NCBI GenBank assembly: GCA_029268515.1
Contig: JAQWNP010000002.1
Location: 124,001 to 188,000 of the forward strand
DNA: 64,000 nt
Direction: 5' to 3'
From: Phycisphaerales bacterium
GTDB taxonomy: Bacteria > Planctomycetota > Phycisphaerae > Phycisphaerales > SM1A02
Positions 7,129-50,355 of this stretch are shown one piece after another (position 1 is the first letter of the stretch; every line of letters starts with the position of its first letter). The notes under the pieces are model-generated. The model saw only the letters and a program-made list of their open reading frames with translations. It searched no databases and was not told the DNA's origin. A program made the position numbers and the translations under genes.

Positions 7129-8724
7129 ATGCGGGCTTCGAATCAAAACAAACGAAAGCAGCCCAAGTGTGGGCTCATATCAATGGCATTTGCAGCTGTT
7201 GGTTTGGCCAGTGGCTTGGCTTGGGCAAATCCCAATGACGCTGTTACTGGTTTAGAAGCGCTGGCTGAACGAATTGGCGATGTTCCCACAGGGAGTGGTG
7301 TTGCTGTTGGCCAAGTTGAGACCGCTACGAGTAGCGGCAGTTACGCACCAGATGAAAATGCGGGACAGTTTGCGGGTAAGACGATCATTGAATCTAGTGG
7401 CCCGTCTGGTGCGTCCAGCCATGCCACCCAAGTTTCGAAGGACTTGTTCGGTCTGGCCCGGAGCATCGCGCCAGGAATTGATAAAGCATATATTTATGAA
7501 GTCAACGATTGGATCAGTTCGGTTTTGCGAGTCGGAACAAGCGGTGTGCCGCTTGTGACTCCCTCTGATCAGAAAGTCGTGAACCACTCATGGATTGGAA
7601 GTGCTGGTAGCTGGGACAATCAGATTCTACGCCGAGCTGATTATGTGGTCGATCGAGACAATGTCATTATGTGTGTGGGCGTAAACAATAGTGAACCAGC
7701 CTATCCCCTGATGTCTCATGGCTATAACAGCATCAGTGTTGGTACCGTTGATGGTACGCATGCGTCAACCGATGTTGGTTCAGGTAATGATGGTCCGGGT
7801 CGTAACAAGCCCGATATGGTGGCCCCAGGTAGTAGTTTTACGAGTTTTGTTACGCCTGTTGTTGGGGCTGCGGCTTCACTGCTTCTTGAGACAGCGCGCA
7901 CCGATTCTGAACTTGTAGGCAACCCTGATGCACAGCGACCTGATGTCATCAAAGCAGTTCTACTTTGTGGCGCTGATCGGAGCAATGACTGGACCAATAA
8001 TCCTGTTGATGCGGGTGCGACACGAGGATGGACCGATCGTGGTCTTGATGAAGTCTATGGTGCGGGTAGCCTCTGGGTTGATGACAGTCACCTTATTCTG
8101 GCCAATGGCGAAACGAATGGCCAGAGTACCGTTCCCTCAGAAAACACAATCTCGGCACCAGGTTGGGCCCTCGATACCATCACGATTGGCGACAGTTCTT
8201 ATTGGCGTTTTGAGTTGACTGAGGCAAGCGACGTTGAGTTCTTGGCAACGTGGTATCGAAAAACAAACACAGTATTTTCGACTAGTTATGTTGCAGACTT
8301 TGATCTATTGCTTTGGTCTGTTTCAGGCAATGATCTCAATTCACTACTTGGGCAAGGCCCGCGTGTCTTTGGCGGCAATGTGACCAGTGAGAGTGCTATT
8401 GACAATGTTGAACTTATTCATGCCACAAATTTAGCGCCTGGTGAATATGTGTTGCAGGTGTCTCGTGTTGATGGCACTTCAAATGCAACGAGCGATGTGG
8501 CAGTCGCATGGAAGATTCCAGAATCATCAGAGGTCGTATTGGTGGGTGACTTCAATAATGACAACATTGTCGATATTTCAGATTTCTCGATTTTCCTAGT
8601 GAACTTTGGCATCAGCTGTGATCTTGGTGACGCGTGTGTCGGCGACTTGAATGGCGACCGGACGGTCAACATCTCGGACTTCTCTATCTTTCTTGTGAAC
8701 TTCGGGACGACTGCTGGCGGCTAA
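7129..8724 (+). CDS. Secreted subtilisin-like (S8) serine protease with dockerin-like C-terminal repeats
   Basis: The product (531 residues from ATG 7129, which has AGGGAG just upstream; a TTG lies one codon earlier) begins with a signal peptide ending near AWA, about residue 33. The S8 domain is visible from GSGVAVGQVETA through SSHATQVSKD (catalytic His about 98), VVNHSWIG (oxyanion Asn about 152) and SFTSFVTPVVGAAA (catalytic Ser about 239). The usual catalytic Asp position carries Glu64. A beta-sandwich region follows. The last 60 residues hold two calcium-binding dockerin-like repeats, GDFNNDNIVDISDFSIF and GDLNGDRTVNISDFSIF. It probably acts outside the cell. It converges on another protein with the same kind of tail. 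Confidence 0.82.
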   Translation: MRASNQNKRKQPKCGLISMAFAAVGLASGLAWANPNDAVTGLEALAERIGDVPTGSGVAVGQVETATSSGSYAPDENAGQFAGKTIIESSGPSGASSHATQVSKDLFGLARSIAPGIDKAYIYEVNDWISSVLRVGTSGVPLVTPSDQKVVNHSWIGSAGSWDNQILRRADYVVDRDNVIMCVGVNNSEPAYPLMSHGYNSISVGTVDGTHASTDVGSGNDGPGRNKPDMVAPGSSFTSFVTPVVGAAASLLLETARTDSELVGNPDAQRPDVIKAVLLCGADRSNDWTNNPVDAGATRGWTDRGLDEVYGAGSLWVDDSHLILANGETNGQSTVPSENTISAPGWALDTITIGDSSYWRFELTEASDVEFLATWYRKTNTVFSTSYVADFDLLLWSVSGNDLNSLLGQGPRVFGGNVTSESAIDNVELIHATNLAPGEYVLQVSRVDGTSNATSDVAVAWKIPESSEVVLVGDFNNDNIVDISDFSIFLVNFGISCDLGDACVGDLNGDRTVNISDFSIFLVNFGTTAGG

Positions 8725-8846
8725 GTGCACATGAAATCTGGGGCATTTGACCAGCTCCTTAATCACTTTCTATTCGAGATGGCATTACCTAGACCTAGAC
8801 CTAGGGCGTGGTCGGTGTACTGGTCAACGATCGATACAGTCATCAA

Positions 8847-41555: not shown

Positions 41556-43256
41556 ATGGCTACCGCAACCGATGGTTTTGTTCCAGCCAATTTGAATGGC
41601 GCTCAAATCGAAGATGTTCAACCGCTTGTCGATGCGTTGATTAATCGTGATGTCGAAGAGCCGGAGGCTTTAGAGACGCTGGTACTTGATCGTAGTGAGC
41701 TTGACTCTGCCACGAGTGAAGCGCATGTCGAACTTTATGTCAGTATGACTCGACACACAGATGATGAAGTGGCGAAGAAGGGTTATCTCAGGTTTGTTGA
41801 GCAGACTGAACCGGCGCTCAAAAAAGCAGCCTTTGAATTGGACAATAAGGTGGCCTCATCGCCAGCTGTTTCACAACTTGATTCAGAACGCTATGGCGTA
41901 TTGCTTCAGGGTATACGAAGCGATGTAGAGATTTTCTGTGAGGAAAATATTCCACTCTTTACAGAGGACACCAAACTCGGTCAGGAGTATGGGGAGATTC
42001 GTGGTGCCATGAGCGTCGTTTTTGACGGTGAAGAGCGCACCTTGCCACAGATGGGTCGCTATTTTGAGGACACGGATCGATCTGTCCGTGAGGGCGCTTG
42101 GTTGGCAGTTGCTGAGCGACGTAATCAGGATCGAGACCGTATTGACGACATCTTCGATCGTATGGTTCAAATCCGTCATCAGATTGGTGTCAATACGGGT
42201 CTTGGCGATTACCGTTCCTATATGTTCAGAGCGATGCATCGCTTCGCTTATACACCGAAGGACTGCTTTGTTTTCCATGAAGCTGTTGAAGAGACCTGTA
42301 TTCCTGTGCTTCGAAAACTTGACAGGCTGCGTGCATCGCAGCTGAATCTAAGTGAGCTGCGACCTTGGGATCTTGAGGTTGATCCGCATGGGCGTGAACC
42401 ACTGCGGCCATTTGTTGATGCAAGTGATCTTATTGAGCGCTCTTCGCGCGTCTTTCATCGTATGGATTCAACTCTTGGCAAACTGTTTGATTCGCTTCGT
42501 GAAGGTGATTGCCTCGATCTTGACTCTCGAATGAATAAACAGCCAGGTGGCTATCAGGTCTTTAAGGAGCGCCAGCGCATTCCATTTATCTTTATGAATG
42601 CAGCGGGTCTTCATCGTGATGTCGAGACAATGGTTCATGAAGCAGGTCACGCATTCCATTCCTTACTCTCTCGAGATGAGCCATTGATTGCTTACCGTAA
42701 CCCGCCAATCGAGTTTGCAGAAGTGGCTTCTATGACAATGGAGCTGACATCATTTCCGTATCTTGATGAGTTTTATACTGAAGAAGAAGCAAGTCGGGCG
42801 CAGCGTCTTCAGCTTCAGAGTCTCGCTAAAATGTTGCCTTGGATTGCAACGATCGATGCATTTCAACATTGGATCTACGACACCCCAACGCATTCAAGAC
42901 AAGAGCGGGAAGAAGCGTGGGTTAATCTTGAGGATCGTTTTGGTTCAGCTCTTGACTGGAGTGGTCTCGAGCATTTTCAGAGTTGCGCATGGCATCGACA
43001 ACTCCATCCCTTCCAAGTTCCGTTTTATTACATTGAATATGGCATTGCTCAGCTCGGTGCGTTGCAGTTGTGGCTGCAGTTTCGGGAGGATCCGGAGCGA
43101 GCGCTTCGGAACTACGCAAAGGCTCTTTCATTAGGAGGTAGCCGCCCTCTTCCAGAGCTCTTCGAGGCGGCAGGACTTGAATTTAGGTTTGATACAGAAA
43201 TGATGGGCAAGTTAATGGATACCGTGGGACAAGTGCTTACGGAGTTGCCTGAGTGA
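41556..43256 (+). CDS. M3 family oligoendopeptidase (PepF-like)
   Basis: The 566-residue protein has the zinc protease motif VHEAGHAFHSLL at about residue 360, with the third ligand expected in FAEVASMTMEL. The length and the N-terminal helical domain with YGEIRGAMSVVFDGEERTLPQM are those of oligoendopeptidase F, a cytoplasmic enzyme that cuts short peptides. No signal peptide is present. AGAAAGG lies shortly before the ATG. The stop overlaps by four bases (GTGA) the start of the PLP decarboxylase, so both are probably made from one message: peptides to amino acids to amines. Confidence 0.92.
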   Translation: MATATDGFVPANLNGAQIEDVQPLVDALINRDVEEPEALETLVLDRSELDSATSEAHVELYVSMTRHTDDEVAKKGYLRFVEQTEPALKKAAFELDNKVASSPAVSQLDSERYGVLLQGIRSDVEIFCEENIPLFTEDTKLGQEYGEIRGAMSVVFDGEERTLPQMGRYFEDTDRSVREGAWLAVAERRNQDRDRIDDIFDRMVQIRHQIGVNTGLGDYRSYMFRAMHRFAYTPKDCFVFHEAVEETCIPVLRKLDRLRASQLNLSELRPWDLEVDPHGREPLRPFVDASDLIERSSRVFHRMDSTLGKLFDSLREGDCLDLDSRMNKQPGGYQVFKERQRIPFIFMNAAGLHRDVETMVHEAGHAFHSLLSRDEPLIAYRNPPIEFAEVASMTMELTSFPYLDEFYTEEEASRAQRLQLQSLAKMLPWIATIDAFQHWIYDTPTHSRQEREEAWVNLEDRFGSALDWSGLEHFQSCAWHRQLHPFQVPFYYIEYGIAQLGALQLWLQFREDPERALRNYAKALSLGGSRPLPELFEAAGLEFRFDTEMMGKLMDTVGQVLTELPE

Positions 43257-44707
43257 GTGATCAAACAGGGCATATGACATCAGGCGAATTCAAAGAGCAT
43301 GGCTATGCCATGATTGATTGGATCGCCAACTACATGGAGCAGGTTGAAAAATATCCGGTCCTGTCTCAAGTCAGTCCTGGTGACATCTACAACAAGCTTC
43401 CAGAGCATCCACCTCAGCAGGCAGAAGACATGTCAGCTGTCATGAAAGATGTTGATGAGATTGTGCTGCCCGGAATAACCCATTGGCAGTCACCAAACTT
43501 CTTTGCTTACTTTCCAGCCAACGTTTCTGGGCCATCAATTCTTGGCGAGCTACTTTCTGCGGGGCTTGGTGTTCAGGGCATGCTTTGGTCAACCAGTCCC
43601 GCGTGCACAGAGGTTGAGACGCGGATGCTTGATTGGATGGTCGACCTCCTCGACTTGCCCAAGACTTTTCTGTCGTCCACTGATGGTGGTGGAGTCATCC
43701 AAGACTCTGCTTCGAGTGCTGCCATTTGCGCCATGATTGCAGCTCGAGAGCGTGTCACTGCTGGAGATGTCAATAAAATTGGTCTCAGTGGGCAAGCTCA
43801 GCCACTGGCAGCTTACTGCTCTGCTGATGCCCACTCGAGTATTGAAAAGGGCGCGCGGATTATTGGTGTTGGATCTCAGTTCCTTCGCCTCATACCCACT
43901 GATGAAGATCACCGAATGCGTCCCGAGGCGCTTGAGGCAGCGATTGAGGCAGATGTCGCGGCAGGCCGAAAGCCATTTTTTGTGGCAGTGACTCTTGGCA
44001 CCACATCTTGTGGCGCGGTAGACCCACTGCCAGCAATTGCAGCTATTGCTCGACGTCATCAAATTTGGATTCATGTTGATGGGGCGATGTATGGAATCAC
44101 AGCATTGTTGCCAGAGTGTCGGTGGATAAACGAGGGGCTAGAACTGGTAGACAGCTACAGTGTGAATGCTCATAAATGGATGTTGACCAATTTCGACTGT
44201 AATTGCTTTTGGATTCGTAATAAGGAAGAACTGATTAGTTCACTGTCGATTTTGCCAGAGTTTCTCGTTAACAAGGCAACTGAGTCAGGGGCTGTGATCG
44301 ACTACCGTGATTGGCAGATTCCACTGGGGCGAAGATTTCGGGCATTAAAACTGTGGATGGTCATTAGACACTATGGTGTCGAGGGTTTGCGTACATTCGC
44401 ACGTGAGCATGTTCAGCAGGCGCAGAAGTTTGCTGCCTACGTCGAGGCCGACGATCACTTTGAGTTAATGGCGCCTCACCCACTCACGCTTGTTACATTT
44501 CGACATCTCGGTGGTGATGCAATTAATGAACGCTTACTAGATATCCTTAACGAATCTGGAAAGCTGTATTTGAGCCACTGCAAATTGTCAGGAAAATATG
44601 TGCTCCGCATGGCCATTGGCTCATCGAAAACAACCGAGGATCATGTCGATCAGGCGTGGGCGTCTATTTGCCAGGCGGCAGCCCAGGCTGAAATTGAGTT
44701 GAGTTAG
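43253..44707 (+). CDS. PLP-dependent group II amino acid decarboxylase (aromatic type)
   Basis: The 484-residue product has the layout of aromatic L-amino acid decarboxylases. Motifs are HWQSPNFFAYFPANVS, SADAHSSIEKGARIIGV (the His that stacks on PLP), the Asp motif HVDGAMYG, and the PLP lysine in SVNAHKWMLTNFDC (about Lys308). The C-terminal YVLRMAIGSSKTTEDHVDQAW is typical. Substrate may be tryptophan, tyrosine, DOPA or phenylalanine; sequence alone does not decide. The start used is GTG 43253, overlapping the M3 peptidase stop, with GGAG 8 bases upstream; ATG 43274 is an alternative. Confidence 0.88.
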   Translation: MSDQTGHMTSGEFKEHGYAMIDWIANYMEQVEKYPVLSQVSPGDIYNKLPEHPPQQAEDMSAVMKDVDEIVLPGITHWQSPNFFAYFPANVSGPSILGELLSAGLGVQGMLWSTSPACTEVETRMLDWMVDLLDLPKTFLSSTDGGGVIQDSASSAAICAMIAARERVTAGDVNKIGLSGQAQPLAAYCSADAHSSIEKGARIIGVGSQFLRLIPTDEDHRMRPEALEAAIEADVAAGRKPFFVAVTLGTTSCGAVDPLPAIAAIARRHQIWIHVDGAMYGITALLPECRWINEGLELVDSYSVNAHKWMLTNFDCNCFWIRNKEELISSLSILPEFLVNKATESGAVIDYRDWQIPLGRRFRALKLWMVIRHYGVEGLRTFAREHVQQAQKFAAYVEADDHFELMAPHPLTLVTFRHLGGDAINERLLDILNESGKLYLSHCKLSGKYVLRMAIGSSKTTEDHVDQAWASICQAAAQAEIELS

Positions 44708-44807
44708 TGCTGTCGATCGAGATGGTGCCGACCGAGTCATCTTGACTGAGGGGCAATAACAAGCTGAATAGGGCTATTTTAAGCGGCCTATGCCTTAGAA
44801 TGATCCA

Positions 44808-44819
44808 AGAACTAGTTCT
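44808..44819. promoter_or_regulatory. 12-bp perfect palindrome upstream of the export cassette
   Basis: The sequence AGAACTAGTTCT is a perfect palindrome 36 bases before the start of the Cys-rich exported protein that opens the cassette. A TATACT box lies at 44840-44845 but is too near the ATG for a normal leader. The palindrome is a candidate operator for a dimeric regulator. No regulator gene is adjacent. Confidence 0.3.
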
Positions 44820-44855
44820 CTACGTATGCATTTGAGAGCTATACTCAGGTAACAC

Positions 44856-45296
44856 ATGAAACGACTTGCATCCATCATGACCTTTCTGGCAGTGTTCGGC
44901 TGGTTCTTGAACCCAGCGATCGCGCTGTGTTGCCAGGACTGTGATCAATGTACAGAGACCTGCTCTGTTGCGTTTGTGCCAGTGATTAAAGAGACGCCTT
45001 CATGCTGTAGCTCAAAGGCGACGGATTGTCACGCGGCGGTTCAAGTAAAACAAACGAGCCAAGATTGCTGTTCACAGTGTCGTTGCAGCGTGACAGATGC
45101 ACCAACGATTGAGCCCATGATGGCATCAGTCGTGATCAAGTCGTATGACGAACTAGACAATGTGAACCACGCGATTGCAAGTCAGTCTTTGAACGGCACC
45201 AGCATTCAGCAATCGAAGCTTGGAATGAGCCCCAAGCCGCCAGGTGATCCACCTGGCCGGCAGTTGCTTATTCAAATTCAGATCCTTCGCATCTAA
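44856..45296 (+). CDS. Small exported Cys-rich protein, unknown
   Basis: The 146-residue protein has a cleavable signal peptide (about 1-24) followed at once by 12 cysteines in residues 25-77, in clusters such as ALCCQDCDQCTETC, TPSCCSSKATDC and SQDCCSQCRC. The rest is free of Cys, with a Pro/Gly-rich end. Such spacing suits metal binding or a disulfide-bonded knot. I do not know the family. It heads a run of export genes on the same strand, and a hairpin with T run at 45319-45353 separates it from them, as if it could be made in larger amounts than the transporter. Confidence 0.7.
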   Translation: MKRLASIMTFLAVFGWFLNPAIALCCQDCDQCTETCSVAFVPVIKETPSCCSSKATDCHAAVQVKQTSQDCCSQCRCSVTDAPTIEPMMASVVIKSYDELDNVNHAIASQSLNGTSIQQSKLGMSPKPPGDPPGRQLLIQIQILRI

Positions 45297-45318
45297 GAAA
45301 AGAAAACTCAGTGTATTG

Positions 45319-45360
45319 ACGAGCAAGCTGCGCTATGCATATTGCTCGTTTTTAGCGAGC
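45319..45360 (+). terminator. Hairpin terminator with overlapping alternative hairpin (possible attenuator)
   Basis: ACGAGCAA (45319-45326) pairs with TTGCTCGT (45342-45349) and is followed by TTTTT: a rho-independent terminator. The right arm can also pair downstream, GCTCG (45344-45348) with CGAGC (45356-45360), which would exclude the terminator. It lies between the Cys-rich protein and the HlyD-type gene, so transcription of the transporter may be reduced or controlled here. Confidence 0.5.
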
Positions 45361-45395
45361 CGGTTCTTTTAAACAGTTGCGTCAGGAATCTGTGC

Positions 45396-46727
45396 ATGTC
45401 ATATAAATCTAAGCATCTTGAGCCTCAGTCTATTACGGTGACTCCACCCCCTAAACACTGGTGGTCGCGGGTTGTCTTTCCCACGTGTCTTTTGGCGTTT
45501 GCCGTTGTCTTACTCGTGATGAGTGGGCGAGCGACATTCCGCACAAGCACATCCGTTGAAGTGTTTCCAGTAACGGGGCAAGTGGGCCTCGCCAATCAGC
45601 GAACGCAGCCGGATGGAGACATTCTCTTTCAAGCAGCCGGTTGGGTTGAGCCTGATCCATTTGCGGTCAACGCAAGCGTACTTATTCCAGGTGTGGTTGA
45701 GAAAATCAATGTTCTTGAAGGCCATACTGTCTCCAAGGGTGATGAGTTGGCGTCATTGATTCCTGATGATGCCCGACTTGATGTCATGCGAGCCAAGGCA
45801 CACTTGGCTTTCAAGCGGGCAAAAAAACAACAGGCATTGGCGTTGATGGAGCAGCTCCATGCCGAGCGCGTTGTCATGGAAGACCAGCTCAGTCGACTTG
45901 AGGAGGCCTATGAAAAGGGCGCGGCTACTGAACGTAATGTTGTGCAGCAGCGACTCAAGATTGCAGCACATCGAAAGCAATGTGACGCAGCTGCAGTAGT
46001 TGCTGATGCCATTGCTGATGCTGAGATTGAAATTGCTTCCGCAGAATTAGCGACCGCTGAATTGGCTCTGTCGCGCACAGTGATCAGATCACCCATTGAT
46101 GGCGTTGTCTTAGAGCGTCTCGCAGAGCCCGGAATGCCTCGATCACCAAACATGAATCAAACAGATATGGGTTATATCGTGCGACTTTATGATCCAACAT
46201 CTTTACAGGTACGAGTCGATGTACCACTGAATGAAGCAGCTCGAATTGGCGTAGGTCAACAAGCAGAGGTGATTGTTGATGTCCTGCCTGGGAGAATTTT
46301 CGAAGGCGAAATCACGCGACTGGTGCATCAAGCAGACATACAGAAAAACACTATTGAAGTGAAGGTAAAGATCAAGAATCCTGAAAAAGAACTGAAACCA
46401 GAAATGCTCTCACGAGTGCGTTTTAAAAGTTCACCGGCGTCCGAGAAGGAATCGCCACAGTCCAGTATCGGTCGCCAGATGACGCTGCCAAATAGACTGA
46501 TTGATCAGCAAACTGATGCCAGCGGTGTTGTTTTGATTGTCGATGCAGCCAGTCAGACCGCACAGCGCCGTATTGTTGAGCTGGGTGCACCAGTACGCGA
46601 TGGGTGGGTGACTATTCGTTCAGGATTACAGCCCGGAGATCGTGTCATTGTGACTCAGGGTAAGCAGATCGAAGCCGGTGAAGCGGTGGCGATCGAGTCT
46701 GAATGGAATGGAGAGCTCGATTTATGA
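45396..46727 (+). CDS. HlyD/MacA-type periplasmic fusion protein of ABC exporter
   Basis: The product (443 residues from ATG 45396, AGGA 8 bases upstream; a TTG at 45342 is rejected) has an N-terminal membrane anchor (about 25-48), a lipoyl half-motif GVVEKINVLEGHTVSKGDEL, a helical hairpin (about 128-222), and then RTVIRSPIDGVVLERLAEPG, the second lipoyl half, with beta-barrel domains after it. Fusion proteins of this type link an inner membrane transporter to the outer membrane or periplasm. Its stop overlaps the ATPase start by ATGA. No TolC-like gene is in the window. Confidence 0.88.
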   Translation: MSYKSKHLEPQSITVTPPPKHWWSRVVFPTCLLAFAVVLLVMSGRATFRTSTSVEVFPVTGQVGLANQRTQPDGDILFQAAGWVEPDPFAVNASVLIPGVVEKINVLEGHTVSKGDELASLIPDDARLDVMRAKAHLAFKRAKKQQALALMEQLHAERVVMEDQLSRLEEAYEKGAATERNVVQQRLKIAAHRKQCDAAAVVADAIADAEIEIASAELATAELALSRTVIRSPIDGVVLERLAEPGMPRSPNMNQTDMGYIVRLYDPTSLQVRVDVPLNEAARIGVGQQAEVIVDVLPGRIFEGEITRLVHQADIQKNTIEVKVKIKNPEKELKPEMLSRVRFKSSPASEKESPQSSIGRQMTLPNRLIDQQTDASGVVLIVDAASQTAQRRIVELGAPVRDGWVTIRSGLQPGDRVIVTQGKQIEAGEAVAIESEWNGELDL

Positions 46728-47431
46728 GTGACGCCATGATCCAATGTGAGGCACTTGGTCGGACGTACTACCGTGGTGACGTTGAGATTACGCCATTGCA
46801 AAGTGTTGCTCTGGAAATCAATAAGGGGGAATTCGTCGCACTCATGGGACCCTCTGGTAGTGGCAAAACGACGCTGCTTAATATTATCGCGGGTATTGAT
46901 CGTCCCACCATTGGCCGTGTTGTCATCGACGGTGTTGATACAACCAGTTTGTCGAGTGCGAAACTGGCTGATTGGCGAGCTCGCACAGTTGGTTATGTAT
47001 TCCAGTTGTATAACTTGATTCCGGTGTTAAGTGCTTATGAGAACGTTGAGGTTCCATTACTTTTGCAACGGATGTCTCGTAAGGTGCGACATAATGCGGT
47101 TTCAGAGGCGCTGATTCGAGTTGGTATTGCTGATCGATCTGATCACTATCCAAGACAGCTCAGTGGTGGACAAGAGCAACGTGTTGCGATTGCGCGAGCT
47201 ATTGTTTCAAAGCCCACACTCCTTGTGGCAGACGAACCAACTGGTGATCTGGATTCACATGCGGCGATAGAGATTATGAATTTGATTGCTGAACTTAATC
47301 AGGAACTCGGAATGACGATTCTGATGGTCACCCATGATGATGCTATTGCCGGACATGCCCATCGACTCGTTCACTTGCTCGATGGTCATGTCATTCCTAG
47401 TGATAAAGAGATTGCGGGGGCAATGGCATGA
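46724..47431 (+). CDS. ABC transporter ATPase, MacB/LolD type
   Basis: The 235-residue ATPase has Walker [12 protein letters not shown] at about 42, Q-loop [21 protein letters not shown], signature [14 protein letters not shown] at about 145 and Walker [14 protein letters not shown]. The [15 protein letters not shown] stretch is typical of the MacB/LolD/FtsE group that works with FtsX-type permeases. It overlaps both neighbours by ATGA. Together with the two following permeases it forms a mechanotransmission-type exporter, which extracts or pushes substrates from the outer leaflet or periplasm rather than carrying them across the inner membrane. That mode is known from MacB and LolCDE and inferred here. 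Confidence 0.93.
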
Positions 47432-48588
47432 GCATTTGGCTTCCAACGCGATTTTGGCGATTGATTTTGAGGCAGATTAAAGGCCGCCCGATGCGTAGTG
47501 GATTAACCATTGCCGGAGTGGCTATTGGGCTCCTGCTCTTCGTACTCATCGAAGGTCTTCAATATGGCGTGACCATAGCAACGCAGCCCGATGAAAACGA
47601 TACGACATTAGTGGTGTATCGTGAAAATCGATATTGTCCAGCAACAAGCACGCTGCCAGAGATCTATCAATCTCGGATTACTGAGCTCGAAGGCGTTCTT
47701 CGTGTCATGCCTATACAAGTCGTCGTTAACAATTGCCGCGCGAGTCTTGATGTCGTGACATTTCGCGGCATGAAGGAAGATGATTTCAAAAACGTATTGC
47801 AGACGGATGCGGTTGTCATTGATGGTTCACTGGATGAATGGTTAGCCCGTAACGATGCGGCATTTCTTGGTAGCTCACTGGCCTCTAGACGATCTTTGTC
47901 AGTAGGTGATCGGTTTGAAGCGGCAGGCTATCAGGTCACTGTTGCTGGTATTTTGGAATCAGATCGATCTGGCTATGACAATCTTGCTTTTGTTCACCTG
48001 CCATATATTCAATATGCGAATCGATCAAAGCAGGGTCAAGTCACTCAATTCAATGTAATTGTTGATGGGCCGGAAAAAATGGACGCAGTAGCAGCACAGA
48101 TTGATGAGATGTTTCATAGCGATCAAGCACCAACACACACGAGAGCAGAGCGTGCTTTTGTTGCTGATATCGCCGGGGACATTGTGCACATTATTGGGGT
48201 CGTGCGGTACTTGGGTTGGGCATGTCTCGCGGCAGTACTTGCATTGATTTGTAATGCGATGGCACTGAGTGTTCAAGATCGTGTTGTTGATAATGCGGTG
48301 CTCCAGACACTCGGGTATCGCAGAACAAGGGTATTTCAACTGGTTGTTGGAGAGGGCTTGGTGCTTGGCGTCTGTGGCGGAATTGTTGGCTCGCTTGGTG
48401 CATTTATTCTGCTTTGGTTGTCTCGAGTGAATTTGAGCGTTGAGGGAATTTCGATTCCCATTGAAGTTGGTGTTACGCAGTTTCTTATTGGTGCGGGCAT
48501 CGCCACTGGTATTGGACTGATTGCAGGCATCATTCCTGCGATGCGAGCGGCTCGCCGCGATCTTGTCAGTTGTTTTAGGGCAATCTAA
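47428..48588 (+). CDS. FtsX/MacB-type ABC permease (first of two)
   Basis: The 386-residue protein has one N-terminal membrane segment (about 22-45), a periplasmic domain of about 200 residues, and three C-terminal segments (about 260-380) with LGYRRTRVFQLVVGEGLVLGVCGG. This is the normal FtsX/MacB permease topology. The start overlaps the ATPase stop (ATGA), and the TAA stop overlaps the next ATG by one base. It differs strongly from the second permease, so the pair is likely a heterodimer as in LolCE. Confidence 0.9.
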   Translation: MSIWLPTRFWRLILRQIKGRPMRSGLTIAGVAIGLLLFVLIEGLQYGVTIATQPDENDTTLVVYRENRYCPATSTLPEIYQSRITELEGVLRVMPIQVVVNNCRASLDVVTFRGMKEDDFKNVLQTDAVVIDGSLDEWLARNDAAFLGSSLASRRSLSVGDRFEAAGYQVTVAGILESDRSGYDNLAFVHLPYIQYANRSKQGQVTQFNVIVDGPEKMDAVAAQIDEMFHSDQAPTHTRAERAFVADIAGDIVHIIGVVRYLGWACLAAVLALICNAMALSVQDRVVDNAVLQTLGYRRTRVFQLVVGEGLVLGVCGGIVGSLGAFILLWLSRVNLSVEGISIPIEVGVTQFLIGAGIATGIGLIAGIIPAMRAARRDLVSCFRAI

Positions 48589-49763
48589 TGAAGCTTCTTC
48601 CCTGGGATTATGGTATTCGCAATCTTTCGCGGTCAAAGGTGCGCACAGTGTTATGCGTACTTTCTGGCGCGCTTATTGCATTACTTGCAATCGCAGCCAG
48701 TGGTGTCGTTCATGGCTTGGAGCGTTCACTCAAAGCAGATGTGTCTCCAAATGTAGGTGTTGTGTATGGGGCTGGTAGTGAAGATAGCTTAGAGCGAAGT
48801 GATATTGATGCACGTACGCCATCACTTGTTTCAGCGTCAGTGCCGGGCATTAGAAGACTTAATGATGAACTAGAGTTCATCTCACCAGAAGTTGTTATGG
48901 CAATTGCAGTCGATCTTGAGTCGCAGACGGAGCAGCGACTTGCTATTGCACGGGGTATTACTGAAACAGCTTATCTGTTACATAAGAATGTACAGATCGT
49001 TGAGGGGCGGGCACCGCGGCCGGCTTACAATGAATTGATGGTTGGGCAACTGGCACCGATCAAAATGGGTGTTTCAGTCGAGGACTTGGCGATTGGTAAG
49101 ACCATTCTCTTTGACAATACGACGTGGACCATTGTTGGGCACTTTGTCGCACCTGGTTCAGTACTTGCTTCTGAGATTTGGCTGCCATTGACGGATCTTA
49201 TGGTGGCAACCAAACGGGAAGGAATTTCTTCGGTGTTGGTTGAGATGGATCCCAGTAAGGGTGGCGACTTAGCTGACTTGGAGACCTTTGCCTTCCAACG
49301 CTTAGACTTGGAGCTTGTTGCCATGCCGGTATCAGAGTATTACCAGCGCGTTGATGCTTTCTATAAGCCAATTAAGTTGATTGTCTGGTTGACCGCTATT
49401 CTGGTTGCACTTGGAGCACTCTTTGGCGGCATTAATACGATGTATGCAGCCTTTATTGGGCGCATTCGGGAATTCGGAATGCTGCGTTGTGTCGGATGGC
49501 GCCCTTCAGCAATTGGTTTGAGCTTAATGCAAGAATCAGTGGTGTCTGTGACGGCTGGGGCCCTGCTTGGTTGTTTGGTTGGTGTTGTCTTTCTTGATGG
49601 CCTCGAAGTACGTTTTACGATGGGGGCATTTGAACTATTGGTGGGTCCAATTCAAATCATGATTGCGATGGTCGCAGCCGTTTGTGTGGCAGTATTTGGT
49701 GTACTACCCCCAGCCATACGTTGTTTGAGGAGCCCAATAAATGAGGCACTTAAGTCAATCTAA
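48588..49763 (+). CDS. FtsX/MacB-type ABC permease (second of two)
   Basis: The 391-residue protein has the same topology as the gene before it: a segment near residues 15-38, a large periplasmic domain, and three C-terminal segments including GGINTMYAAFIGRIREFGMLR, the conserved coupling helix region of the FtsX family. Its start overlaps the first permease stop (TAATG). The two permeases would share the single ATPase. The periplasmic domain is MacB-like in length but I cannot assign a substrate from it. Confidence 0.9.
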   Translation: MKLLPWDYGIRNLSRSKVRTVLCVLSGALIALLAIAASGVVHGLERSLKADVSPNVGVVYGAGSEDSLERSDIDARTPSLVSASVPGIRRLNDELEFISPEVVMAIAVDLESQTEQRLAIARGITETAYLLHKNVQIVEGRAPRPAYNELMVGQLAPIKMGVSVEDLAIGKTILFDNTTWTIVGHFVAPGSVLASEIWLPLTDLMVATKREGISSVLVEMDPSKGGDLADLETFAFQRLDLELVAMPVSEYYQRVDAFYKPIKLIVWLTAILVALGALFGGINTMYAAFIGRIREFGMLRCVGWRPSAIGLSLMQESVVSVTAGALLGCLVGVVFLDGLEVRFTMGAFELLVGPIQIMIAMVAAVCVAVFGVLPPAIRCLRSPINEALKSI

Positions 49764-49797
49764 GTTAAATACACACTTATACATGGAGATATCAGTC

Positions 49798-50355
49798 ATG
49801 CGTACACTCATATTTGTGCCAACACTTTTGATGTTCCTCTTCGTCACATCAGCTTGTGGAAACAAAGGTGACAAGGCCAGTACATCAAGTGGACCTACAC
49901 TACCGGCCAATTTGGTAGCGACTTCAATTGATGGATCACCACAAACAGTGATCGAGACTCTGAAGGATAAGAAAGCTGGTGATACGGCTTTAGTTGTTGG
50001 CCTTATTGGTGGGAAGATGGAACCCTTTGCAAAGAACCGAGCTGTCTTTCAGTTAATCGATGCCTCTTTGAAACCATGTGATGTTTCTGAGGATGGTTGC
50101 CCTGCTCCCTGGGATTACTGTTGTGAGCCGCCGGAGCAGATTATGGCCTCGTCAATGACGGTTCAGGTTGTCGGTGCCGATGGGCGCCCTCTTCCGCTTG
50201 GCCTCGAGGGCAAAGATGGTTTGGAACCTCTCACAACACTGGTGGTCTCAGGAAAGGTCAATCAAGCGAGTGATGGTGTGTTTGTTCTTGACGCAGAAAA
50301 GATCATGATTACTAAAGTCTCACCTGTTAGCCATGCGGGGCACGACCACGATTGA
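49798..50355 (+). CDS. Lipoprotein with Cys-rich loop and His/Asp tail, unknown (OB-like)
   Basis: From ATG 49798 (GGAG 9 bases upstream) the 185-residue product has a lipobox VTSAC, so it is lipid-anchored at Cys20. The core ALVVGLIGGKMEPFAKNRAVFQLID ... LTTLVVSGKV looks like a small OB-type beta-barrel. In it sits a loop with Cys94, Cys101, Cys108 and Cys109 (CPAPWDYCCEPP). The chain ends in HAGHDHD. Both are good metal-ligand patterns. A frame starting at 49741 would overlap the permease and is not favoured. It closes the cassette. I do not know the family's function; metal or copper handling is a guess. Confidence 0.75.
   Translation: MRTLIFVPTLLMFLFVTSACGNKGDKASTSSGPTLPANLVATSIDGSPQTVIETLKDKKAGDTALVVGLIGGKMEPFAKNRAVFQLIDASLKPCDVSEDGCPAPWDYCCEPPEQIMASSMTVQVVGADGRPLPLGLEGKDGLEPLTTLVVSGKVNQASDGVFVLDAEKIMITKVSPVSHAGHDHD

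Follow-up and report, generated by a model that had tools for sequence, protein, structure and literature searches.

What does the six-gene cassette at 44856-50355 export or sense, and how do its two outer proteins belong to it? The question arises in a window of 64,000 nucleotides from a Phycisphaerales bacterium (assembly GCA_029268515.1, contig JAQWNP010000002.1, positions 124,001 to 188,000; window positions are used below), in which an exported Cys-rich protein and a lipoprotein flank the genes of an ATP-binding cassette (ABC) system. An earlier note, made from the letters alone, had described one MacAB- or LolCDE-like system, possibly metal- or thiol-related. Our analysis supports this in part: there is one such system, and a metal or thiol connection is probable, but the Cys-rich protein looks more like a leader acting in cis than like a component of the pump. 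We consider it moderately probable that the cassette is a metal-responsive envelope ABC system, in which a CutF-type nascent-chain sensor stands before MacAB/LolCDE-like machinery for metal export or trafficking and the lipoprotein is a metal carrier. The genes, with stop codons included in the coordinates, are as follows.

44856-45296, + strand: Cys-rich exported leader protein (CysR), 146 aa with 12 Cys; hydrophobic N-terminus, Pro-Pro at residues 132-133, C-terminus ending in QILRI
45396-46727, + strand: HlyD/MacA-type periplasmic adaptor (membrane fusion protein), from family matches
46724-47431, + strand: LolD/MacB-type ABC ATPase, from family matches
47428-48588, + strand: FtsX/MacB-type permease 1, from family matches
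48588-49763, + strand: FtsX/MacB-type permease 2, from family matches
49798-50355, + strand: lipoprotein with a predicted oligonucleotide/oligosaccharide-binding (OB) fold and a D-x-C-x-x-P-W-D-Y-C-C signature, without a Pfam family

Coordinates and family matches bear out the six same-strand genes and their order as the earlier note gave them; its start of the cassette at 44808 lay slightly upstream of the likely one at 44856. The start/stop overlaps that it reported can be read directly from the sequence, as ATGA overlaps at 46724 and 47428 (4 nt each) and a 1-nt overlap at 48588, joining the adaptor, the ATPase and the two permeases. Permease 2 is separated from the lipoprotein gene by 34 nt, and the leader stop from the adaptor ATG at 45396 by 99 nt. 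The longest mechanical open reading frame (ORF) of the adaptor begins at TTG 45342; the ATG at 45396 has an AGGA Shine-Dalgarno sequence at 45384-45387, 9-12 nt upstream.

The adaptor matched HlyD_D23 with 73.9 bits and RND_mfp with 130.6 bits (cut-off 94.9), and the ATPase matched ABC_tran with 121.6 bits. Both permeases exceeded the gathering scores of FtsX (56.8 and 45.7) and MacB_PCD (57.8 and 39.5). With FtsX and MacB_PCD permeases next to an ABC ATPase, the cassette falls within the definition of an FtsX/MacB-fold (type VII) ABC system. Neither the leader nor the lipoprotein of the window has a Pfam or NCBIfam family above cut-off. The curated models of the best-known relatives scored lower. 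The best NCBIfam match of the ATPase was LolD (230.4 bits, under the cut-off of 307.75), and the LolC/E model gave the permeases 66.8 and 13.9 of 362.45. The MacB model PRK10535 gave the ATPase 209 bits and the permeases 15-24, of 966, the genes being separate here, and the MacA model gave the adaptor 34.7 of 342 bits. Like MacAB-TolC, the cassette has an HlyD-type adaptor, an FtsX/MacB-fold permease and often a TolC-type channel, but its ATPase and permeases are separate, the two permeases differ, and a lipoprotein and a leader are added. Like LolCDE, it has a separate LolD-like ATPase and two FtsX-type permeases, but it scores under the cut-offs and includes its own lipoprotein as well as an adaptor. 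The plain MacAB and Lol identities were therefore rejected, their curated cut-offs being unmatched.

To follow the cassette in other genomes, we used distribution searches dedicated to Planctomycetota. In an order-level survey of 201 genomes, with permease 1 sought at E 1e-40, the lipoprotein was present in 114 genomes and permease 1 in 114, both being present in 113. In 110 of these 113 the two genes shared contig and strand and were less than 4 kb apart; in the other three (G089, G096, G163) they were on separate contigs. One genome, G127, has the lipoprotein without permease 1. The earlier note had proposed that the end proteins are not parts of one system if they mostly occur without the ABC genes; the lipoprotein was found together with permease 1 in 113 of its 114 genomes and adjacent in 110, and this condition thus does not refute a single system in its case. 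For the Cys-rich protein homology cannot decide the matter, and by anatomy it heads most of the operons (102/125), as described below.

The order of the genes is conserved as well. At 40 of 40 loci, hand-picked from 37 lipoprotein-bearing genomes of the order, we found adaptor, ATPase, permease 1, permease 2 and lipoprotein in this order on one strand. A scan with one genome per species (84,980 species) returned 398 lipoprotein relatives, and the full order was present in 69 of the best 80 of them. Among the other 11, L103 has a lipoprotein without a pump, L109 a broken or chimeric permease 1 and L115 a rotated operon, and in eight (L076, L079, L081, L096, L118, L132, L133, L149) less than 4 kb separates the lipoprotein from the end of the available DNA. 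In L109, the C-terminal part of the ORF at 7207-8781 is permease 1 and its start seems unrelated, pointing to a rearrangement or an assembly chimera. Named records in the species scan were mostly labelled Phycisphaerae, Phycisphaerales or Planctomycetota; the few Limnohabitans, Pseudomonadales and Vicinamibacteraceae titles among the relatives look like mislabelled assemblies.

Further, the lipoprotein profile matched 92 of 294 genomes of the phylum, including some low-scoring relatives without a pump, and the suggestion of two lineage-specific parts must accordingly be given up, since the cassette is not confined to one lineage. A further 40 loci were drawn from the phylum profile list and earlier lists, nine of them chosen as odd cases (G041, G127 and seven low-scoring relatives). 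These comprised 24 canonical loci (one of them, L205, with broken frames), six with the rotated order permease 2, lipoprotein, adaptor, ATPase, permease 1, one without lipoprotein, and nine with a lipoprotein relative without a pump nearby. Seven distinct loci that appeared in the order adaptor, permease 1, ATPase (MFP-PERM1-ATP) are canonical, this order being a sorting artefact of overlapping ORFs. The block of adaptor, ATPase, two permeases and lipoprotein is thus conserved far beyond the lineage of the window, in many Planctomycetota, and because it recurs in many genomes it is more than a chance assembly. The lipoprotein relatives L192-L199, with 32-75 bits, have no pump nearby (L197, a 3.7-kb contig, is uninformative). 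L184 and L193-L199 belong to other planctomycete families, and possibly there is a wider OB-fold lipoprotein family with other partners.

The lipoprotein has a conserved signature, D-x-C-x-x-P-W-D-Y-C-C. Across 41 aligned lipoproteins C101, P104, D106, C108 and C109 are invariant, and D99 (40/41), Y107 (38/41), W105 (36/41) and C94 (34/41) are nearly so. In permease 1, Cys70 and Cys103, both within the MacB_PCD (periplasmic core) part, are likewise invariant in 41 of 41 aligned sequences. The lipoprotein of the window has both elements named in the earlier note, the CPAPWDYCC stretch and the HAGHDHD tail; CPxPWDYCC proved deeply conserved, while the His tail did not, the same-genus relative L031 reading NNNSNQD at that place. 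HAGHDHD was therefore rejected as a conserved metal tail. In six loci (L051-L053, L055, L056, L070) one ORF of about 333-349 aa holds two tandem lipoprotein-like domains.

The AlphaFold2 model of the lipoprotein (mean predicted local distance difference test score 87.6, residues 31-170 mostly above 90) predicts an OB fold, with the CPxPWDYCC stretch between strands. A fold search with this model returned general OB folds, many of them from nucleic-acid-binding proteins, which we take as sharing the fold only, and among them the envelope proteins YgiW and CcmE. Structural alignments to the YgiW and CcmE folds gave 13-20% identity; YgiW (a BOF protein) and CcmE share with the lipoprotein a periplasmic or envelope OB fold, without a sequence match. 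Sequence searches found no relative of known structure, only matches at chance level, and 49 members of the lipoprotein family matched no Pfam family, CusF (PF11604) giving no match up to E 0.1. CusF was also not among the listed rows of the fold search, which excludes nothing.

We then turned to the Cys-rich protein. tblastn detected it at only 2 of 40 loci, sequence homology being nearly blind to it, yet inspection of the DNA upstream revealed an exported Cys-rich ORF at most of these loci, and we therefore used an anatomy filter with controls. The filter asked for a hydrophobic 14-mer, at least six Cys after it and a Pro-Pro within the last 32 residues; 25 loci with less than 2.7 kb upstream were left out of the count. 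Sets A (L031-L070) and B (L071-L150) overlap, 150 permease-2 loci being 132 distinct ones. On the same strand upstream of the operon, a leader with a C-terminal Pro-Pro was found at 36/38, 48/59 and 18/28 loci of three partly overlapping sets, or 102/125, and at 88/110 after removal of duplicates. The controls were nearly empty: the upstream opposite strand gave 1/38, 3/59 and 0/28, the operon antisense strand 2/38, 1/59 and 0/28, the operon sense strand 0/125, and the downstream region 1/37, 1/68 and 0/23. When the Pro-Pro condition was dropped, a Cys-rich exported ORF was found at 113/125 loci, 104 of which have a Pro-Pro. In seven rotated operons such an ORF stands ahead of permease 2 in six, with a Pro-Pro in two and without it in four. 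Since the leader is kept before the first gene even there, it is tied to the head of the operon and not to one partner gene.

The leaders evolve fast and have almost no common sequence, and yet their spacing is constrained. Mean column identity was 17% over 42 sequences. We examined 88 distinct leaders, left after removal of identical C-termini, together with the leader of the window (89 in all), in which the last Cys cluster precedes the Pro-Pro by 49.1 positions on average, with a standard deviation of 5.5. Shuffled pairings of Pro-Pro and Cys gave a standard deviation of 11.1, with 0 of 5000 as tight as observed. This distance is an index difference, a mean of 49 leaving 48 residues between, compared with 45 intervening residues in CruR. 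The C-termini are of two types: in type 1 the Pro-Pro lies two to four residues from the end, most often after Leu-Arg, and in type 2, to which the leader of the window belongs, 9-20 residues follow it, often ending in LLI, LRI or LQV. Cys residues are at least twice as numerous as His in 79/89 leaders, His being few. In the leader of the window the Cys residues form CCxxC and CxC clusters, which are putative metal-binding motifs.

About half of the leaders do not adjoin the adaptor. Among the 88 distinct leaders of the relatives, 44 lie less than 900 nt from the first gene of the ABC cassette and 44 further away, and a TolC-size ORF fills the interval in 43 of the 44 distant-leader loci. Nine of 10 such ORFs tested were TolC-type outer membrane efflux proteins (OEP, PF02321). 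The earlier note did not mention this ORF. The cassette of the window has no TolC-size gene between leader and adaptor, and its own genome has OEP genes elsewhere.

The RNA around the leader stop is predicted to be strongly structured, as in the following three features.

45279-45291, + strand: last codons of the leader, with predicted pairing to the adaptor Shine-Dalgarno region (45378-45392), from RNA folding
45319-45349 (with U-run), + strand: first of two mutually exclusive terminator-like (terminator/antiterminator-like) hairpins in the leader-adaptor gap, with a U-rich tail
45344-45360, + strand: second of these hairpins, with a U-rich tail

The fold of 45240-45410 had an energy of -53.1 kcal/mol (z -3.38), with 0 of 200 shuffles as good, and in it Shine-Dalgarno positions 45384-45386 are predicted to pair with leader codons at 45284-45286 and their neighbours. 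Across 88 loci, the 130 nt at the leader stop gave a mean z of -2.05, with 43 of 88 below -2. The control regions gave -0.67 after the lipoprotein (14 of 88 below -2), -0.30 inside the adaptor (6) and -0.07 before the leader (6). The Shine-Dalgarno sequence of the next gene had a mean pairing probability of 0.78 at 87 loci; for 368 other start sites of these operons, taken as controls, the value was 0.61 (p 8e-13). The next-gene starts were assigned by a simple rule, and some, more than 300 nt off, are probably wrong. As for the two hairpins, their sequence at 45319-45360 is not kept in the same-genus relative L071, and evidence for terminators is weak because a scan of 44680-46700 gave two sites compared with 1.4 expected. 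An intrinsic terminator as a conserved leader-adaptor switch was rejected on these grounds. At 45240-45256, a perfect 7-bp inverted repeat (CCAGGTG-ATC-CACCTGG) lies in the codons for Pro-Pro-Gly-Asp-Pro-Pro-Gly of the leader.

This anatomy resembles two described copper-responsive leaders. CutF of Rhodobacter capsulatus is an exported protein with a Cys motif, followed after 45 residues by a proline-rich end; copper slows its synthesis and thereby frees the Shine-Dalgarno sequence of cutO, and OEP and HlyD_D23 genes are common neighbours of CutF-like leaders (PMC9973294). Shared with our leaders are a short exported Cys protein heading an operon, a C-terminal Pro-Pro, a spacing of about 45-50 residues, an RNA structure over the next Shine-Dalgarno sequence, and OEP and HlyD_D23 genes as next neighbours. 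The leaders described here are far richer in Cys, their Pro-Pro is often followed by 9-20 residues, and they stand before an ABC system; the likeness is one of anatomy. The leader of the window lies within the filters of that paper for length (146 aa, limit <150 aa), strand and distance (99 nt to the next gene). Its Pro-Pro is just within the last 15 residues (PPGRQLLIQIQILRI), many relatives having longer tails, and a stem-loop over the next Shine-Dalgarno sequence, as sought in the same paper, is predicted. The main text of PMC9973294 contains neither 'ABC transporter' nor 'planctomycet'.

CruR (DUF2946) of Bordetella pertussis has a CXXC motif 45 residues before RAPP, and copper on the nascent chain relieves arrest, whereupon Rho ends transcription (PMC9426467). 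Our leaders would share with it the design of a copper-sensing nascent chain, and like them it has a Cys motif at a fixed spacing, 45 residues in CruR, before a C-terminal Pro-Pro, but it uses Rho-dependent termination and is repressed by copper, and none of 42 leaders, nor the protein of the window, matched DUF2946. In the main text of PMC9426467 the term 'ABC transporter' is absent, and a small number of planctomycete homologues is noted. CopL_fam gave weak matches in 2 of the 42 leaders (best E 0.0016).

The link to metal comes from neighbouring pumps. Heavy-metal resistance-nodulation-division (RND) genes, searched with TIGR00914, had matches in 101 of 101 genomes; their presence is therefore uninformative, and linkage alone was used. 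In at least seven of the 101 genomes, the operon being present in 59 of the 101, the cassette is preceded on its own strand by an RND gene less than 5 kb away; three of those seven genes exceed the family cut-off and four are just under it (659-670 of 701 bits). With a looser filter, 15 of 20 RND loci had a leader-like ORF ahead of the RND gene and on its strand; the 20 loci were hand-picked, seven of them for lying near the operon. In L214 one leader heads the RND gene and the ABC cassette follows directly on the same strand, with no leader of its own found, which suggests joint control of both exporters. The genome of the window itself has a His-rich exported ORF upstream of a heavy-metal RND operon (L218:2285-2834, G000 contig C6); it ends in TTRLII like many Cys-rich leaders and, in this looser look, has no Pro-Pro close to its end. 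From the RND linkage and the shared leader anatomy, metal is most likely the signal, and a ligand set rich in Cys and poor in His points most to a soft metal such as Cu(I).

We propose that the leader acts like CutF and CruR. Its Cys clusters would bind a thiophilic metal, most likely Cu(I), while the chain threads into the periplasm, and binding would alter the speed of the ribosome across the Pro-Pro segment near the C-terminus, some 49 residues further on. The position of the ribosome would then open, or keep shut, the RNA structure hiding the Shine-Dalgarno sequence of the next gene, and the leader would thereby set the translation of the adaptor (or channel) gene. The genes under its control would form a tripartite-type exporter, composed of a LolD-like ATPase, two FtsX-type permeases (type VII, mechanotransmission) and an HlyD-type adaptor; roughly every second relative would add an outer membrane channel of TolC type. 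As in MacAB, the ATPase and the two permeases would power the adaptor and the channel. The OB-fold CxxPWDYCC lipoprotein may serve as a tethered periplasmic metal carrier, giving metal to the pump or receiving it from the pump, in a CusF-like role; CusF is the OB-fold-like partner protein of the Cus RND pump. CusCFBA and CzcCBA share with the cassette a similar upstream leader anatomy, an adaptor and an outer channel, and such RND genes are adjacent in at least seven genomes, but the motor of the cassette is an ABC ATPase with FtsX permeases and not an RND pump, and its lipoprotein has no PF11604 match.

Several observations weigh against this proposal. The cassette contains no known metal gene, and its neighbours in the window (M3 peptidase, pyridoxal phosphate (PLP) decarboxylase, MobA-like) include no metal-transport genes. 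The Cys of the lipoprotein may form disulfides rather than bind metal. In G041 (L191) the pump lacks its lipoprotein, and conversely the lipoprotein of L184, which scores well (178 bits), has no pump nearby. As for the leader, the filter and the spacing measure were defined after inspection of the first sequences (the first 40 loci), related species are not independent in the statistics, and signal peptides were judged by hydropathy, that of the window protein by eye. Under the relaxed filter 12/125 loci lack a Cys-rich exported ORF, and 9/113 of those found lack the Pro-Pro, including four from rotated operons. Most leaders, unlike CruR, carry 9-20 residues after the Pro-Pro. The leader of the window itself has a Cys to Pro-Pro distance at the long end (55), DPP instead of RAPP, and 13 residues after it. 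The Shine-Dalgarno sequence pairs mainly with the leader's own coding end in just 27/87 loci. The looser filter at the RND loci also gave wrong-strand matches in several cases, and its count has no control. A streptolysin S model was matched by one of the 42 leaders (E 0.00078), better than any CopL match; we ascribe this to chance similarity in a Cys-rich stretch and reject that identity for it.

The same parts can be read in other ways. The ABC unit might work on the periplasm in the maturation of a cuproenzyme or cofactor rather than in efflux, with the lipoprotein delivering metal or haem to a client enzyme, as in NosDFY/NosL or Ccm/CcmE. CcmE and YgiW are indeed among the OB-fold matches, the pairing of a lipoprotein with an ABC unit recalls NosDFY/NosL, and many copper leaders head uptake or maturation genes according to PMC9426467. 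However, the HlyD-type adaptor and the TolC-size gap at 44/88 leader loci (an ORF in 43, OEP in 9/10 tested) indicate export across the envelope, and we regard maturation as rather unlikely. Instead of a regulatory leader, the Cys-rich protein could be a functional component of the machine, namely a normal metal buffer or chaperone of the periplasm. It is exported and Cys-rich, its mature form may accumulate, and rotated operons mostly retain it without the Pro-Pro; a leader could also do both. Against such a role, a nearly unconstrained sequence goes with a constrained Cys to Pro-Pro distance, the position at the head is kept in six of seven rotated operons, and stable RNA directly follows the gene. 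We judge a simple buffer unlikely.

That the cassette exports antibiotics, peptides or lipids in the way of MacAB, the metal theme being coincidental, would suit its closest general families (MacB_PCD/FtsX, RND_mfp and LolD). The CutF-like leaders, the heavy-metal RND linkage in at least seven genomes and the invariant Cys of the lipoprotein and permease 1 speak against it and make it improbable in our view. A Lol-type system that releases or sorts lipoproteins is suggested by the LolD and lolCE models, which score the ATPase and permease 1 best. Moreover, the genome of the window (G000) has no protein passing the lolCE cut-off, permease 1 being the best single match at 60.4 bits, so no better Lol candidate is obvious there, although within one 639-aa frame three pieces score 47-58 bits. 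Yet the scores stay under the curated cut-offs (LolD 230 of 308, lolCE 67 of 362), an adaptor is present whereas none is known for LolCDE, and a patchy presence (114/201 order genomes) is not expected of an essential Lol system, which leaves this reading very improbable.

The metal-responsive system with a nascent-chain sensor is therefore the reading we retain, and it may reach further. We put forward tentatively, at somewhat less than an even chance, that the cassette is a counterpart of CusCFBA, widespread in planctomycetes and powered by an ABC ATPase: a type VII (FtsX-fold) exporter dedicated to a soft metal and provided with an OB-fold lipoprotein carrier. Its nascent-chain sensors would conserve the distance from Cys cluster to Pro-Pro and not the sequence, and in the same genomes their ligands would be retuned, to Cys for the ABC operon and to His for the RND operon. 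Most known metal exporters of bacteria are P-type ATPases, RND pumps or cation diffusion facilitator (CDF) carriers. If the reading is true, an FtsX-fold ABC metal system with a dedicated lipoprotein would be an additional type of motor for metal export. The leaders would be a family of regulatory proteins nearly invisible to homology, in which a binding site, a fixed distance, a stalling point and an RNA lock persist. From their design follows a rule, open to testing, by which leaders that sense metals could be sought in other phyla, and the leaders would allow one to test directly against which metals planctomycetes protect themselves. The cassette would be a new combination of known parts; within the terms searched, titles and abstract beginnings in the literature gave no description that we recognised as this combination, which does not prove its absence.

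Directly upstream of the cassette, at 41556-44707, the genes for the M3-family peptidase and the PLP-dependent decarboxylase overlap one another. In L071, the relative from the same genus, the decarboxylase gene likewise lies upstream of the leader.

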